A DNA stretch of 47,226 nt from an uncultured Caryophanales bacterium (GTDB lineage Bacteria > Bacillota_I > Bacilli_A > RF39 > UBA660), in the NCBI GenBank assembly GCA_949948745.1, contig CATLHA010000008.1:1-47226 (forward strand), in the 5' to 3' direction. The translations under genes were made by a program, and so were the position numbers. Shown here one piece after another: positions 5,297 through 47,114 of the stretch. The notes beneath the pieces are model-generated. The model saw nothing but the letters and a program-made list of their open reading frames with translations. It was not told where the DNA came from and did no database searches. How positions within the stretch are numbered: the first letter of the stretch is position 1; every line of letters starts with the position of its first letter.

Positions 5297-6136
5297 TTAT
5301 AGGTTCATAAACATTTCTGTTTTTTCTTTTACTTTCTCTTTAATTGCTTTTTCTCCACTACTAATTATTTTTCTTGGATCATAAGCTTCTGTTGCATTTA
5401 TATATTTTTTTACTTTATCATGCCATGCAATCTGTAATTCTGTATTGATGTTAATTTTATTGATTCCACAAGAGATTGCTTCTTTAATTTGATAATCTGG
5501 AATACCAGTTCCTCCATGTAACACAAGTGGTACACTTAAATTTTCTGAGATTTCTTTCATTGTTTTGAAATCTAAGTTAGGTTCCCCTTTATATAAACCA
5601 TGTACACTTCCTAAAGCGGGTGCTAAGGAATCTATATTGGTTTCTTCTACTAATCTTATACATTCATCTAATCTTGCATTTGTCGTAGATGATGTGATAT
5701 TATCTTCTGTTCCTCCAATATGACCAATTTCTGCTTCTACACTGACTCCCCTTTTGTGAGCGTAGTCTACTACTTTTTTTGTAATTTCTATATTTTCTTC
5801 TAGTGGATGTTTAGAAGCATCGATCATTACTGATGTAAATCCTGCATCAATTGCACATTTACATGTCTCAAAGCTTGTCCCATGATCCACATGAAGACAA
5901 ACTGGTATTGTAATATTTAGGTCATGAAGCAGTCCTTTTACCATGTTACTAACGGTTAAGAAACCTCCCATATATTTTGCTGCACCTTCACTAACTCCTA
6001 GAATGACTGGTTTTTGTAAAGATTCCATTTCTTCCAAAATGTATTTTGTCCATTCTAAATTATTGATATTAAAGTGGGGGACTGCATATTGATTTCTTTT
6101 TGCATCTAATAAAATCTCTTTACTATTTACTAGCAC
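5297..6136 (-). CDS. fba: Class II fructose-bisphosphate aldolase
   Basis: This 279-residue zinc aldolase cleaves fructose 1,6-bisphosphate into two triose phosphates. LHVDHG (residues 81-86) carries the catalytic Asp84 and a zinc histidine. SVHG near 178 and LHGGTG near 207 supply the other metal ligands. The start is a GTG preceded by AAGAGGG; the N-terminus then aligns with B. subtilis FbaA (LVxxxEIL...A...YAV..FNxNNLEW). Tagatose-bisphosphate aldolases are close relatives and cannot be fully excluded, but a glycolytic role is likelier because no tagatose genes are nearby. Confidence 0.92.
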
Positions 6137-6192
6137 CTTATCCCTCTTTTCTACTGCTTGTCCAACTTTTTTACTCTTCTTATTTCAATTTA

Positions 6193-6220
6193 AGTGTATC
6201 ATATTTATATTAGAATCTAA
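6193..6220 (-). promoter_or_regulatory. Possible promoter of fba-murA
   Basis: The minus strand has TGA-TACACT (6193-6201), an extended -10, with TTAGAT 16 bases upstream. A consensus TTGACA near 6240 has no good -10 at the right distance, so the assignment is weak. Confidence 0.35.
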
Positions 6221-6263
6221 ATAAAATATAGTCATTTTCTGTCAAATATACAAAAAAACTGTC

Positions 6264-6794
6264 TTAAAAAATATAATGAATTCCTAAGATAAGTAAAATG
6301 ATACTTCCTATCATTGTCGCAATAGAACCAAATTTATTTACTAATAAATTTCCAAGTTTTAAACCACAGTATGTAAAAAATGCACTCGTAATGGAAAAGA
6401 TAAAACTGGCCATATAGATATTATTTGTTAAATTTCCAAGACCAATCCCTATACTAAAACTATCGATACTTACAGTAAATGCAAATAAAAGTACAGATGG
6501 AATACTTTCAAATATTGTTAGTTGTTCTTCTTTTTTTAAAGAGATTAACATTTCAATTGCTAACACAATAAATATTATTCCAGCTACTATTTCTGGATTG
6601 ATTGGTACAATAGAAAATATAATTTTTCCAATAAAGTATCCAAGTAATGGCATAAAAAAATGAAATATTCCTACAAAAATTGTCATCATATACTGAAATT
6701 TATTTTTAATATTTAATGTTCCATAGATTAAAGATAGTGAAAAAGCATCCATACTAAGACCAACTGCAATAATAAAAAGGATTCCTAAAGACAT
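6264..6794 (-). CDS. MntP/YtaF-type membrane exporter (DUF204)
   Basis: This 176-residue protein has six predicted membrane helices arranged as an internal repeat. Each half carries an acidic signature, SMDAFSLSL near residue 14 and SIDSFSIGIG near 109, which is typical of MntP manganese exporters and of related sporulation-associated YtaF proteins. B. subtilis has a homolog (ywlD) in the same spoIIR-rpiB neighbourhood. Metal specificity is inferred from the family. No yybP-ykoY manganese riboswitch fits in the 50-base leader. The SD GGAGG is instead part of a terminator-like hairpin that ends just before the ATG. Confidence 0.78.
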   Translation of the reverse strand: MSLGILFIIAVGLSMDAFSLSLIYGTLNIKNKFQYMMTIFVGIFHFFMPLLGYFIGKIIFSIVPINPEIVAGIIFIVLAIEMLISLKKEEQLTIFESIPSVLLFAFTVSIDSFSIGIGLGNLTNNIYMASFIFSITSAFFTYCGLKLGNLLVNKFGSIATMIGSIILLILGIHYIF

Positions 6795-6829
6795 AAAAAA
6801 ACCTCCTACTTAAGAATATGTAAGAGGTT
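6795..6829 (-). terminator. Terminator hairpin containing the SD of the MntP-like gene
   Basis: A 10-bp stem (6820-6829 with 6800-6809, one G-U pair) and a T7 run end one base before the ATG. The 3' arm holds the SD (AGGAGG). It terminates the PHP gene or occludes translation of read-through transcripts. Confidence 0.75.
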
Positions 6830-6851
6830 CTCTTTTTATCAACAAAGTATT

Positions 6852-7601
6852 TTATAATACAATTTTCTTTCTCTTTTCAAAGATTACTGGTTTTAATCCA
6901 ATTTCTTCACATAAGTATTCTGCTTGTTCTAAGTTGTCTGGTACTTCAGGTAATCTATGTGCATCACTTCCAATCGTTACATAATCTCCTACTAACTTAT
7001 AACGACATATTTTATCAATACTTGGAAATAGGTTTAATTGTGCTCTTCTTTCAGCGGAAGTATTGATTTCAATGATTTTTCCATTTTCTTTCACTGCATC
7101 TAATACTTCTTTTACCTGATTATATTCTGAAAAATCTTCTTTATAATATCGATTAATATAGTCAATATGTCCTATTACATCTACGGAACTTGACTCTATC
7201 ATTTTTAATATTTCTCTATAGTATAAATAGGTTACATATCTTTTATTTTCTGATGTTTTTAAATTCGGAATATTATGAATACTTCCCATGATAAAATCAA
7301 AAGGAAAGATATTTGCTAGTTCTTCTACTTGTTTTGGATATAAATGAGGTTCTGATATTTCTACTCCTTTTAATAAGGTTAATTTTCCTTGATGCTTCTC
7401 ATTTAGATGATCGATTTCATAGTCTCTTTCAGAAAATTTTCTTCGAATATACATCATATCTTCACGATCAAATTCTACGTGATCTGTAATTGTGGCGTAT
7501 CGAATATTGTTTTCAATTAATATTTTCGCAATATCTTCTAACTCCATTTTAGAATCCCAAGAATATTTTGAATGTATATGCATATTGGTTTTTATCATCA
7601 T
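6852..7601 (-). CDS. PHP-domain phosphatase, HisK histidinol-phosphatase family
   Basis: This 249-residue PHP-fold metal phosphatase shows the ordered metal-binding motifs NMHIHSKYS at the N-terminus, ITDHVEF, KGVEIS, SIHN, GHIDYI and IGSDAHR. It resembles HisK-type histidinol-phosphate phosphatases of Firmicutes. No other histidine-biosynthesis gene is in the window, so the true substrate may be another phosphoester. I chose the ATG at 7601, six bases after GGAG, instead of the ATG at 7613 that lies upstream of that SD. It has its own strong promoter just after spoIIR. Confidence 0.8.
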   Translation of the reverse strand: MMIKTNMHIHSKYSWDSKMELEDIAKILIENNIRYATITDHVEFDREDMMYIRRKFSERDYEIDHLNEKHQGKLTLLKGVEISEPHLYPKQVEELANIFPFDFIMGSIHNIPNLKTSENKRYVTYLYYREILKMIESSSVDVIGHIDYINRYYKEDFSEYNQVKEVLDAVKENGKIIEINTSAERRAQLNLFPSIDKICRYKLVGDYVTIGSDAHRLPEVPDNLEQAEYLCEEIGLKPVIFEKRKKIVL

Positions 7602-7621
7602 AATCCACTCCATCTGTTTAT

Positions 7622-7650
7622 ATTATAAAGGATAGAATGAGTTTTGTCAG
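7622..7650 (-). promoter_or_regulatory. Sigma-A promoter of the PHP phosphatase gene
   Basis: CTGACA (7645-7650), 17 bases, TATAAT (7622-7627) on the minus strand, placed immediately after the spoIIR stop. Confidence 0.8.
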
Positions 7651-43869: not shown

Positions 43870-45255
43870 ATGAATGAAAAAATGATATGGTCAAATTTTC
43901 TAAATAGCATAAAAAATGATATAACTCCTCTTTCTTTTGATACCTGGTTTAAAGAAACTGAATTGTATGAATGTAAAAATGGGTTGGCTAAAATTATAGT
44001 TCCTATGGGAATTTCTAAAAAACATTTAACTACTCATTATTATGAACTGATTGTGTCAAAACTCAGTGAAATTGTTGGAGACAATGTAGATATTCAATTT
44101 TTTCTTAAAGAGGAAATAGAAAAAGAAAATAGGGTAGAACAGCAAGAATTATTTTCCTCTACGGAAGTACCCATTGATTATGAGGTTCAATCAATTCAAA
44201 GAAGGCATCAATCTAATTTAAATCCTGACTATACATTTGAAAACTTTATAGTAGGTAATAGTAATAAATTTGCACAAGCTGCGGCCTTAGATGTAGCGGA
44301 GAATCCTGGAAATATCTATAATCCACTATTTATTTATGGTAATAGCGGACTTGGAAAGACACATTTAATGCACGCAATTGGAAATTATATACAGCAACAT
44401 AGTGATAAAAAAGTTCTATATGTTCCAAGTGATCAATTTATTAATGATTTTCTTGGAATTAACAAGAAAGATGAATATGGAAATAACTTTGATTATATTA
44501 ATTATTTCAAAAATAAATACCGAAATATAGATGTTCTAATTATTGATGATATTCAATTTTTTCAAGGAACAAAGCAAACACAAAATGAATTTTTCCACAC
44601 ATTTACTAATTTGTATAATGAGAATAAACAGATTATTATTTCATCAGATAGGTCACCAGATGACTTAAAAATGTTAGAAGATCGTTTAAGAACAAGATTT
44701 TGTTGGGGACTAACTGCTGATATTTATCCACCAGACTTTGAACTTAGAGTTGCTATATTAAAGAAAAGAATAGTAGGGGAATCAATTGATAAGAATATTC
44801 CTGATGATGTAATAGAATATATTGCTTCCAATGTAGGAAGTGATGTAAGACATTTGGAAGGATCAATCACTAGACTACTTGCGTACTCTACTATTATGGG
44901 TGGAGCAAATATTACATTAGATCTTGCAATTGAAGTATTAAAAGATTTTGTTAATAAAGGTTATAGTGAAAAAAATAATATTAATAGGATACAAAGAATA
45001 GTAGCAGAACACTTTCAAGTATCAGTTGAAGATTTGAAAAGTAAGAAGAGAAGTGCAAATCTTGCTTTTCCAAGACAAGTGGCTATGTATCTTTGTAGAA
45101 AACTTACTGATGAATCTTTTCCTAAAATAGGTATTGAATTTGGGGGAAAAGATCATTCTACTGTAATGCATTCTGTTGAGAAGATAGAAAAAGAGATAAC
45201 AGTAAATAGAGAACTTGAAAATATTATAGAAAAATTAAGGAAAGAAATAGTATAA
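43870..45255 (+). CDS. dnaA: Chromosomal replication initiator DnaA
   Basis: The 461-residue AAA+ initiator has domain I (about 1-80), a linker, and the ATPase core with Walker A GNSGLGKT (157-164) and Walker B IIDDIQFF. The sensor and arginine-finger region is LEDRLRTRFCWGL. Domain IV carries the DnaA signature GGKDHSTVMH, with Lys where B. subtilis has Arg. The SD AGAGAGGAG precedes the ATG. DnaA boxes flank it on both sides. It probably shares a transcript with dnaN. Confidence 0.98.
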   Translation: MNEKMIWSNFLNSIKNDITPLSFDTWFKETELYECKNGLAKIIVPMGISKKHLTTHYYELIVSKLSEIVGDNVDIQFFLKEEIEKENRVEQQELFSSTEVPIDYEVQSIQRRHQSNLNPDYTFENFIVGNSNKFAQAAALDVAENPGNIYNPLFIYGNSGLGKTHLMHAIGNYIQQHSDKKVLYVPSDQFINDFLGINKKDEYGNNFDYINYFKNKYRNIDVLIIDDIQFFQGTKQTQNEFFHTFTNLYNENKQIIISSDRSPDDLKMLEDRLRTRFCWGLTADIYPPDFELRVAILKKRIVGESIDKNIPDDVIEYIASNVGSDVRHLEGSITRLLAYSTIMGGANITLDLAIEVLKDFVNKGYSEKNNINRIQRIVAEHFQVSVEDLKSKKRSANLAFPRQVAMYLCRKLTDESFPKIGIEFGGKDHSTVMHSVEKIEKEITVNRELENIIEKLRKEIV

Positions 45256-45394: not shown

Positions 45395-46519
45395 ATGAAA
45401 CTAAAAATCAAAAAGGACTTATTATTAGATGGACTATCAAAAGTATCTAAAGCAATTTCAACTAAAAATTTAGTACCTGTATTAGCTGGTATAAAATTTG
45501 AACTTGAAAAGGAAGGATTAACTTTAACTGCAAGTGATAATGATATTACTATTCAAGTATTTATTGAATCTAATAGTGATGATATGACTATTGATCAAGT
45601 TGGTAGTATTATAATTCAAGGAAAGTATATTTTAGATATTGTTCGCAAATTACCAGATGAATTTATTAATATTGAAGTAGTGGACGATTTAAAAATTATT
45701 ATTTATACAGAGAATAGTGAATTTAACTTAAATGGTATTAGTAAAAGCGAATATCCTAATATATTATTAGAAAGCAGCAAAAATCCTATTTCTGTTAATT
45801 CAAGAGTATTTAGGAGTATTATTAATCAAACTTCTTTTGCTTCAAGTAATGATGAAGCTCGTCCTATTTTAACAGGAATCAATTTTAAAATTCTTGGAAA
45901 TGTATTAGAATGTAATTCTACAGATAGTTATCGTTTGGCTCGAAAGGTTATTCAATTAGAAACAGCGGTAGAAGATAATTATAATATTGTTATTCCAAGT
46001 AAAAACTTACTAGAATTTATTAAAATCATGGATGATTCTGAAGAAAATTTAGAATTACATGTATTTAATAATAAGATTTTAATTAAGTTTAATAACCTTT
46101 TATTCCAATCTAGACTTATTAGTGGGACATATCCAAATACTGCTAATTTATTACCAGACGAATTTATGTTAAGTATTCATGCTAAAATTAGTGATTTATA
46201 TAGTGTAATTGATAGAGCTAGTATTTTAACTAGTGATAAAGAAAAGAATATTGTTACATTTGAAATTGTTCAAAATACTTTATATGTTCGTAGCAGTTCT
46301 GCTGAAATAGGTAGAGTAGAGGAAAAAATGTCTATTGAAAAGAGTAATAGTGAGAACTTAAAAATATCATTTGTAGCTAAATATATGATGGATGCATTGA
46401 AATCTTTTGATGATGATAAAGTTGAAATTTCATTTGTTGGGGAAGTAAAACCTATTATTTTAAAAAGTGAAAAAGATGAAGGATTAACTCAATTAGTGTT
46501 ACCAATTCGTACATATTAA
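45395..46519 (+). CDS. dnaN: DNA polymerase III beta sliding clamp
   Basis: The 374-residue clamp has three repeated domains. Typical segments are LVPVLAGIKFE near 26-36, SEYPNIL near 115, FASSNDEARPILTGINF near 140-156, SGTYPNTANLLP near 238 and the C-terminal LVLPIRTY. It encircles DNA as a dimer and tethers the polymerase and other partners. The SD is AGAAGGA. A strong terminator follows, so comK is a separate unit. Confidence 0.98.
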   Translation: MKLKIKKDLLLDGLSKVSKAISTKNLVPVLAGIKFELEKEGLTLTASDNDITIQVFIESNSDDMTIDQVGSIIIQGKYILDIVRKLPDEFINIEVVDDLKIIIYTENSEFNLNGISKSEYPNILLESSKNPISVNSRVFRSIINQTSFASSNDEARPILTGINFKILGNVLECNSTDSYRLARKVIQLETAVEDNYNIVIPSKNLLEFIKIMDDSEENLELHVFNNKILIKFNNLLFQSRLISGTYPNTANLLPDEFMLSIHAKISDLYSVIDRASILTSDKEKNIVTFEIVQNTLYVRSSSAEIGRVEEKMSIEKSNSENLKISFVAKYMMDALKSFDDDKVEISFVGEVKPIILKSEKDEGLTQLVLPIRTY

Positions 46520-46531
46520 TATATATTGAAT

Positions 46532-46559
46532 AAGAATCTTTAAAAAAGGTTCTTTTTTT
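46532..46559 (+). terminator. dnaN terminator
   Basis: A 10-bp stem (46532-46541 with 46545-46554, one G-U pair) with a three-base loop is followed by a T-run. Confidence 0.9.
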
Positions 46560-46652
46560 AACACTTTTAACCAATTTTCGACATTTATGTAGTATAAAAT
46601 ATAAGCCATTAATTCTTGATTAGGATTAAAATCAATTTTTAGGGGGCATATT

Positions 46653-47114
46653 GTGGAAAAATATGAAATAGGTATAAATACACTAGCTGTAGTAGGAATT
46701 AATCAAAATAGAGCTAAAATTGTGGAATATGAACGTGATCTTTTTATTAATTCTAATTCTTATGATGTAATGAATTATAGTTGTTGTTATTATGGGAGTA
46801 GTTATAGTGGACGAGCTAATGGGAGTAGGGTAATGCTTAATTGTGAATATAAATTACCCATTATTATAGAAGAGACAAGAGAGATTATCTTTTTTCCTAC
46901 AGAATCTCCTAGTATTAATTCTTGTACTTGGATATCTTTAGAGATGGTGGACTTTATAGAAGGTAATTCTAAATCTTGTTGGATTTCTTTTAAAAATGGT
47001 AAAAAAATTAAAATTTGTCGTTCAAAAGACTCTATAGAGAATCAACTTTATAGAGCAACTCGTTTAAAATTTATTTTAGGTGAAAGAAAACAGTCTTATT
47101 GTATGAAAAAATAA
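46653..47114 (+). CDS. comK: ComK-family competence transcription factor, short form
   Basis: The 153-residue protein matches ComK through YEIGINTLAVV at the start, SCCYYGSSYSGRANGSR near 43-59, FFPTESPSINSCTWISLEMV near 80-99 and SIENQLYRATRLKF near 126-139. ComK is the master activator of DNA-uptake genes in B. subtilis. That protein has 192 residues; this one stops about 35 residues earlier and so lacks the FMLYPK motif bound by MecA for ClpCP degradation. The start is a GTG six bases after AGGGGG. Its place beside dnaN is unusual, since recF or yaaA usually follow. Whether DNA-uptake genes exist lies outside the window. Confidence 0.88.
   Translation: MEKYEIGINTLAVVGINQNRAKIVEYERDLFINSNSYDVMNYSCCYYGSSYSGRANGSRVMLNCEYKLPIIIEETREIIFFPTESPSINSCTWISLEMVDFIEGNSKSCWISFKNGKKIKICRSKDSIENQLYRATRLKFILGERKQSYCMKK

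Follow-up and report, generated by a model that had tools for sequence, protein, structure and literature searches.

In most accounts, ComK marks competence and is the textbook case of a regulator controlled by proteolysis. The B. subtilis ComK sequence that served as reference is 192 residues long and matches the Pfam ComK domain (PF06338) up to residue 158; the 34-residue tail that is left holds the segment FMLYPK at residues 168–173. At the level of transcription, the B. subtilis comK promoter is a direct binding target of Spo0A~P, with sites that are described as having mismatches (PMC3297582). The core Spo0A site is TGTCGAA, according to PMC3485338 and PMC5295017. B. cereus ComK2 also lacks the C-terminal segment, by 22 residues, and coexists with a long ComK1 (PMC3128618). 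The MecA-binding region is likewise not conserved in B. coagulans ComK, which has a shorter tail and comes from a species that has MecA homologues (PMC3536758).

Here we analyze a comK gene that stands next to dnaA and dnaN in an uncultured bacterium. The window, which is the whole stretch of DNA analyzed, is an entire contig of 47,226 nt (G000:C8) from a 1.80 Mb assembly of 96 contigs that is 91% complete, and it ends 112 nt past comK. In all counts below, "the family" denotes the same family as the window genome (35 genomes), and the phylum sample comprises 393 genomes. The gene dnaN lies directly upstream of comK, and the region contains the following features:

43870..45255, + strand: dnaA (TIGR00362, 519.2 bits, cut-off 343.9)
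45395..46519, + strand: dnaN, DNA polymerase III beta subunit (TIGR00663, 311.1 bits, cut-off 137.65)
46532..46559, + strand: terminator-like inverted repeat AAGAATC...GGTTCTT with a T run, 3' of dnaN (by eye)
46577..46583, + strand: TTCGACA, an exact Spo0A-type box (reverse complement of TGTCGAA), 69 nt from box end to comK start
46595..46600, + strand: TAAAAT, candidate -10 element, 11 nt after the TTCGACA box
46641..46646, + strand: AGGGGG, ribosome-binding site of comK (read from the sequence)
46653..47114, + strand: comK, ComK family without the C-terminal tail, 153 aa (PF06338 match; alignment with 51 other family ComKs)

The open reading frame at 46653–47114, which starts with GTG preceded by AGGGGG, encodes a genuine ComK-family protein. 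PF06338 matched it with 120.9 bits (curated cut-off 22.3) over profile positions 1–151 of 152, in agreement with the clear ComK match reported by the first-pass annotation. None of the NCBIfam models matched this frame, and a PDB sequence search with the protein returned no ComK relative. Across 153 aligned positions, the protein shares ~30% identity with B. subtilis ComK, and it stops 7 residues past the end of the Pfam match, so that the MecA-binding FMLYPK segment is absent, as the same annotation had stated. It had also supposed that the segment was lost from this particular gene, and here the comparison with relatives gave a different picture. We aligned ComK from 52 of the 57 family loci (L003, L154, L155, L162 and L164 were dropped by the motif filter). 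The FMLYPK columns are empty in 52/52 proteins, whose lengths are 144–163 aa and which extend 0–9 residues past B. subtilis position 158. The short end is normal for the lineage and not peculiar to the window gene. A frameshift or truncation of the window comK, for which longer relatives would have been the sign, was rejected, as 0/52 family proteins are longer at these columns. The core is strongly conserved: 28 columns are at least 90% conserved in the 52 proteins, and at 25 of these B. subtilis ComK agrees with the family residue. A scan of genome contigs for ComK gave two loci, one of them on a contig of the relative G015. Among titles in the open-access literature, we found no relevant paper on ComK in such lineages.

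The proteolytic partner is missing as well. The search for mecA that had been proposed along with the first-pass annotation found MecA (PF05389) in 0/58 relatives and in 0/393 phylum genomes, while the controls B. subtilis and L. lactis were positive. The absent ComK tail and the absent MecA go together across the sampled phylum. The expectation that control of this ComK must differ from that in B. subtilis holds, and the protein-level switch of that species, MecA/ClpCP acting on the C-terminal tail, would be missing in the family because both the tail and MecA are absent. The first-pass view went further and held that ComK had lost its MecA signal and so escaped proteolysis. The absent tail agrees with this, but since none of the 52 family ComKs has the tail segment and MecA was found in none of the 393 phylum genomes, there was no MecA tag to lose. 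In addition, dN/dS of ~0.04–0.21 in 8 hand-picked pairs of family comK genes indicates that the gene is under purifying selection. We consider an escape of this kind hardly credible.

ComK is present in 32/35 family genomes and in 8/23 genomes from other families, and it was found in 118/294 genomes of the class sample and 89/393 of the phylum sample. The ComK open frames of the class and phylum samples are 128–202 aa long, plus one of 286; in twenty loci read in detail, including the long-frame G086, G143, G270 and G084, the proteins are 130–182 aa. By our own reckoning, some ComKs outside the family run up to ~24 residues past the profile end, and tails there are short, but not zero. Outside the family (L170–L189), a ComK-like gene stands directly upstream of pgk in 14/19 loci, of which 5 were assigned by Pfam and the others from the N-terminal sequence. 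In 4 loci it has a RidA-like neighbor (2 by Pfam). The pgk-side genes resemble the window comK in being short PF06338 proteins in genomes without MecA, and eight such genomes that were tested have no DprA. Unlike the window family, these genes have no dnaN neighbor, and no TTCGNCA lies within 150 nt upstream in 18/19 (L180 has one TGCCGAA in reverse orientation). Their position suggests a possible tie to glycolysis.

Within the family, the position of comK is well conserved. dnaN is upstream of comK in 54/57 loci, recF is downstream in 51/57, and gyrB follows further downstream within the fetched flank in 49/57; RecF and GyrB of L032 score above the NCBIfam cut-offs. B. subtilis differs in that comK here lies between dnaN and recF. 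Of the 6 loci without recF, 4 have a contig end 115–203 nt from comK (L001, which is the window, with a figure also given as 112 nt, L021, L146 and L156), and in the other 2 (L006 and L148) comK is located elsewhere. Loss or replacement of recF was rejected on these counts, and the earlier remark that comK replaces the usual recF neighborhood is an assembly-edge artefact: the window contig simply stops. L010 departs from this order, with a pilin-like gene separating dnaN from comK.

The control that the first-pass annotation could not name is, by our reading of the dnaN-comK gap, a set of candidate Spo0A boxes in the comK promoter. In a de novo 7-mer ranking of 31 family dnaN-comK gaps, the most over-represented word is AGGGGGA, and TTCGACA ranks second, after this ribosome-binding site; TTCGACA occurs in 15/31 of the gaps (expected 0.36, largest of 200 shuffles 3). 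An exact TTCGACA lies within 150 nt upstream of comK in 29/57 family loci (expected 0.66, largest of 500 shuffles 4), although loci of one genus are related and these counts are not independent events. The remaining 28/57 loci lack an exact box, and several of them have one-base variants. Pairs of boxes exactly 20 nt apart occur in 7/57 loci (expected 0.00). Moreover, -10-like hexamers lie 11, 21 and 31 nt after the box in 12–13, 8 and 10 cases, respectively, against ~1 expected (~1.1 for 11 nt; largest of 300 shuffles 4–5), spacings that keep the two elements in register at one, two and three turns of the helix. At 6 nt from the box there is a smaller excess of -10 elements, whose 6 cases are no more than the largest shuffle gave. 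Taken by itself, the single box of the window comK gap is weak, as the whole window has 4 box matches against 2.47 expected, while among the 27 window intergenic gaps of at least 60 nt the exact box occurs in only one, the dnaN-comK gap.

Elsewhere, counts in control regions are low. TTCGACA is present in 0/47 family comK-recF gaps and 5/107 other family gaps, and it occurs upstream of pilB in 0/21 and upstream of pilC in 1/19. By contrast with its expectation of 0.53, it is found upstream of spo0A in 14/22 family loci, and it also precedes the spo0A copy of the window genome, which is what autoregulation of Spo0A would predict. Compared with the B. subtilis comK promoter (PMC3297582), with which this locus shares the Pfam ComK core and Spo0A sites in the promoter, the boxes here are nearer to the consensus. 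Since the gap belongs to the dnaA-dnaN region, and the B. subtilis origin has published Spo0A boxes (PMC5295017), the boxes might serve replication control at the origin, like Spo0A at oriC, and not comK. However, the 140 nt that precede dnaN contain a box in 0/52 family loci, and it is with the -10 element and the comK start that the boxes are in phase. We rejected this use of the boxes, which appears very improbable.

The phasing of the boxes with the -10 element instead suggests a Spo0A-controlled comK promoter. Spo0A would occupy a single TTCGACA box, or a pair of them, between dnaN and comK, on a helix face shared with RNA polymerase, and would drive comK upon entry into stationary phase or sporulation. 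Because the boxes lie upstream of the -10 element, Spo0A would most likely be an activator of comK; we infer both its binding and this activation.

The regulator is present in most of these genomes. As a matter of gene-family presence, which is what the searches report, and not of function, Spo0A (PF08769) occurs in 31/35 and SpoIVA in 33/35 family genomes, so the family members, with genomes of 0.7–1.8 Mb, are likely spore formers. The Spo0A of the window genome passes TIGR02875 with 273.9 bits (cut-off 200). In at least one box-bearing genome (G015), no Spo0A was found, perhaps owing to incompleteness. Similar uncultured orders, namely RF39, RFN20 and ML615J-28, show mixed sporulation according to PMC10868615. 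In the window genome, spo0A (L190, G000:C1:38000-50000) sits by eye between tpiA/pgk-like and gpmI-like neighbors, i.e. in a glycolysis cluster.

Together, these results make it probable that the gene encodes a DNA-binding regulator of the ComK family and that Spo0A sets its amount, mainly through transcription and without a MecA branch. One alternative is that the short ComK binds DNA as a repressor or antagonist, the role suggested for B. cereus ComK2. According to PMC3128618, ComK2, minus 22 C-terminal residues, lowers comG expression, and B. subtilis ComK minus 25 C-terminal residues binds DNA and loses activation. In favor of this reading, the core of the family protein is conserved, with its 28 columns. 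However, every ComK-positive relative, the window genome included, has a single ComK match, so that a longer, activating ComK to oppose is absent, in which the family differs from B. cereus. A tail that never existed in the lineage also cannot be presumed to be needed for activation. We regard a repressor role as unlikely, yet we keep it in consideration because the tail-less B. subtilis protein loses activation (same source).

The other alternative is that ComK is a conventional competence master regulator, which, as in B. subtilis, would induce the pilus and ComEA-ComEC so that DNA is taken up and the chromosome transformed. The apparatus itself is widespread: ComEC occurs in 30/35 family genomes, a strong PilB-like ATPase (>330 bits) in 33/35, and a two-domain PilC in 21/21 examined, and PilD and ComEA are found by family models. 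For the window genome, ComEC is recognized by TIGR00361, and ComEA by the TIGR00426 domain model, whereas it does not pass TIGR01259. PilC and PilD form an operon there (L218), and two genes whose N-termini look pilin-like run divergently from pilB (by eye); Pfam found a pilin domain in neither of the two. The earlier suggestion to look for DNA-uptake genes, whose complete absence would have implied another role for ComK, was thus answered in part: comEA, comEC, pilB, pilC, pilD and pilin-like genes are present, while DprA is found in only 1/35 family genomes (G032), with 11/14 control genomes positive and no match in the window genome.

DprA, which processes the incoming strand, is needed for transformation. 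Among ComK-positive genomes 1/40 have DprA and among ComK-negative genomes 13/18, close to mutual exclusion, a contrast that is inflated by relatedness and rests on about a dozen families. Outside the family, the corresponding figures are 0/8 and 13/15. This distribution argues against ComK as a transformation marker here, insofar as gene presence reflects function.

Paired AAA-N5-TTT boxes (K-boxes), which had been named as another feature to look for, were found in 0/54 comK, 0/21 pilB, 0/19 pilC and 0/22 spo0A regions at the spacings applied, and the family's own ComK site may differ. In the window genome, comEA-comEC follows ~24 nt after a gene that by eye is rodA/ftsW-like, and we saw no separate promoter for it. 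Compared with the B. subtilis system, we found here no 34-residue tail, MecA, DprA or paired K-boxes. On this evidence, conventional competence control is improbable. Single AAAA-N5-TTTT boxes, which are half sites of the ComK type, are more frequent than expected in the comK gap (18/54, expected 7.7, largest of 500 shuffles 16); in fixed 150-nt comK regions the excess is smaller (16/57, expected 8.3, largest shuffle 17), the comK-recF control gaps also have a weaker one (8/47, expected 2.9, largest shuffle 9), and one of the two copies in the window gap falls inside the terminator-like repeat of dnaN. A variant with a 4-nt spacer precedes pilC in 7/19 loci (expected 1.06, largest shuffle 4). 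Autoregulation of comK, or control of pilC by ComK, is possible from these motifs.

The pilB loci have regulatory features of their own. Between pilB and the two pilin-like genes lies a compact, strongly conserved divergent promoter (L094:8620-8700 and pilB loci L072–L093), which reads TTGATT-N17-TATAAT followed by a TAAAATAC(C/T)ATAG block; in L097 this block forms an inverted repeat without mismatches. The conserved block TATAAT-N9-TAAAWTRCYAKA occurs in 12/206 loci, all 12 of them pilB stretches, and nowhere in the window with up to 2 mismatches allowed. An operator common to pilB and comK was rejected, as the block is confined to the pilB stretches and absent from the window. L094 also carries, at 6039-7634 on the minus strand, a gene that combines a pilin-like N-terminus with a glycine-rich domain (PF12810, 152 bits). 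In many genomes of the family, the PilB-type ATPase is accompanied by one or two additional secretion ATPases, with Tad-like neighbors by eye (L096, L098).

We then return to the Spo0A-controlled regulator as the preferred reading. Its likeliest target would be the pilus/ComEA-ComEC apparatus, which would then have a purpose different from chromosomal transformation by way of DprA. What is new here, as read from the genomes, is the candidate Spo0A boxes of the comK promoter and the finding that ComK occurs apart from DprA and MecA. It is tempting to propose, more tentatively than the reading above, that ComK proteins of this phylum do not regulate transformation at all: ComK would be mutually exclusive with DprA, it lacks MecA, and in the family it may have become, or have stayed, a direct arm of Spo0A beside the origin, serving a stationary-phase or sporulation-linked program. 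If true, the link between Spo0A and ComK would be the older part, and the competence switch of B. subtilis, including the tail, MecA and the K-box regulon, would have been elaborated from it later. A conserved ComK without MecA, tail or DprA, and yet with a putative Spo0A link at its promoter of the kind known from B. subtilis, would separate the parts of the classic switch and make their order of origin testable. The label "competence protein ComK" would then be no predictor of transformation in these gut lineages.
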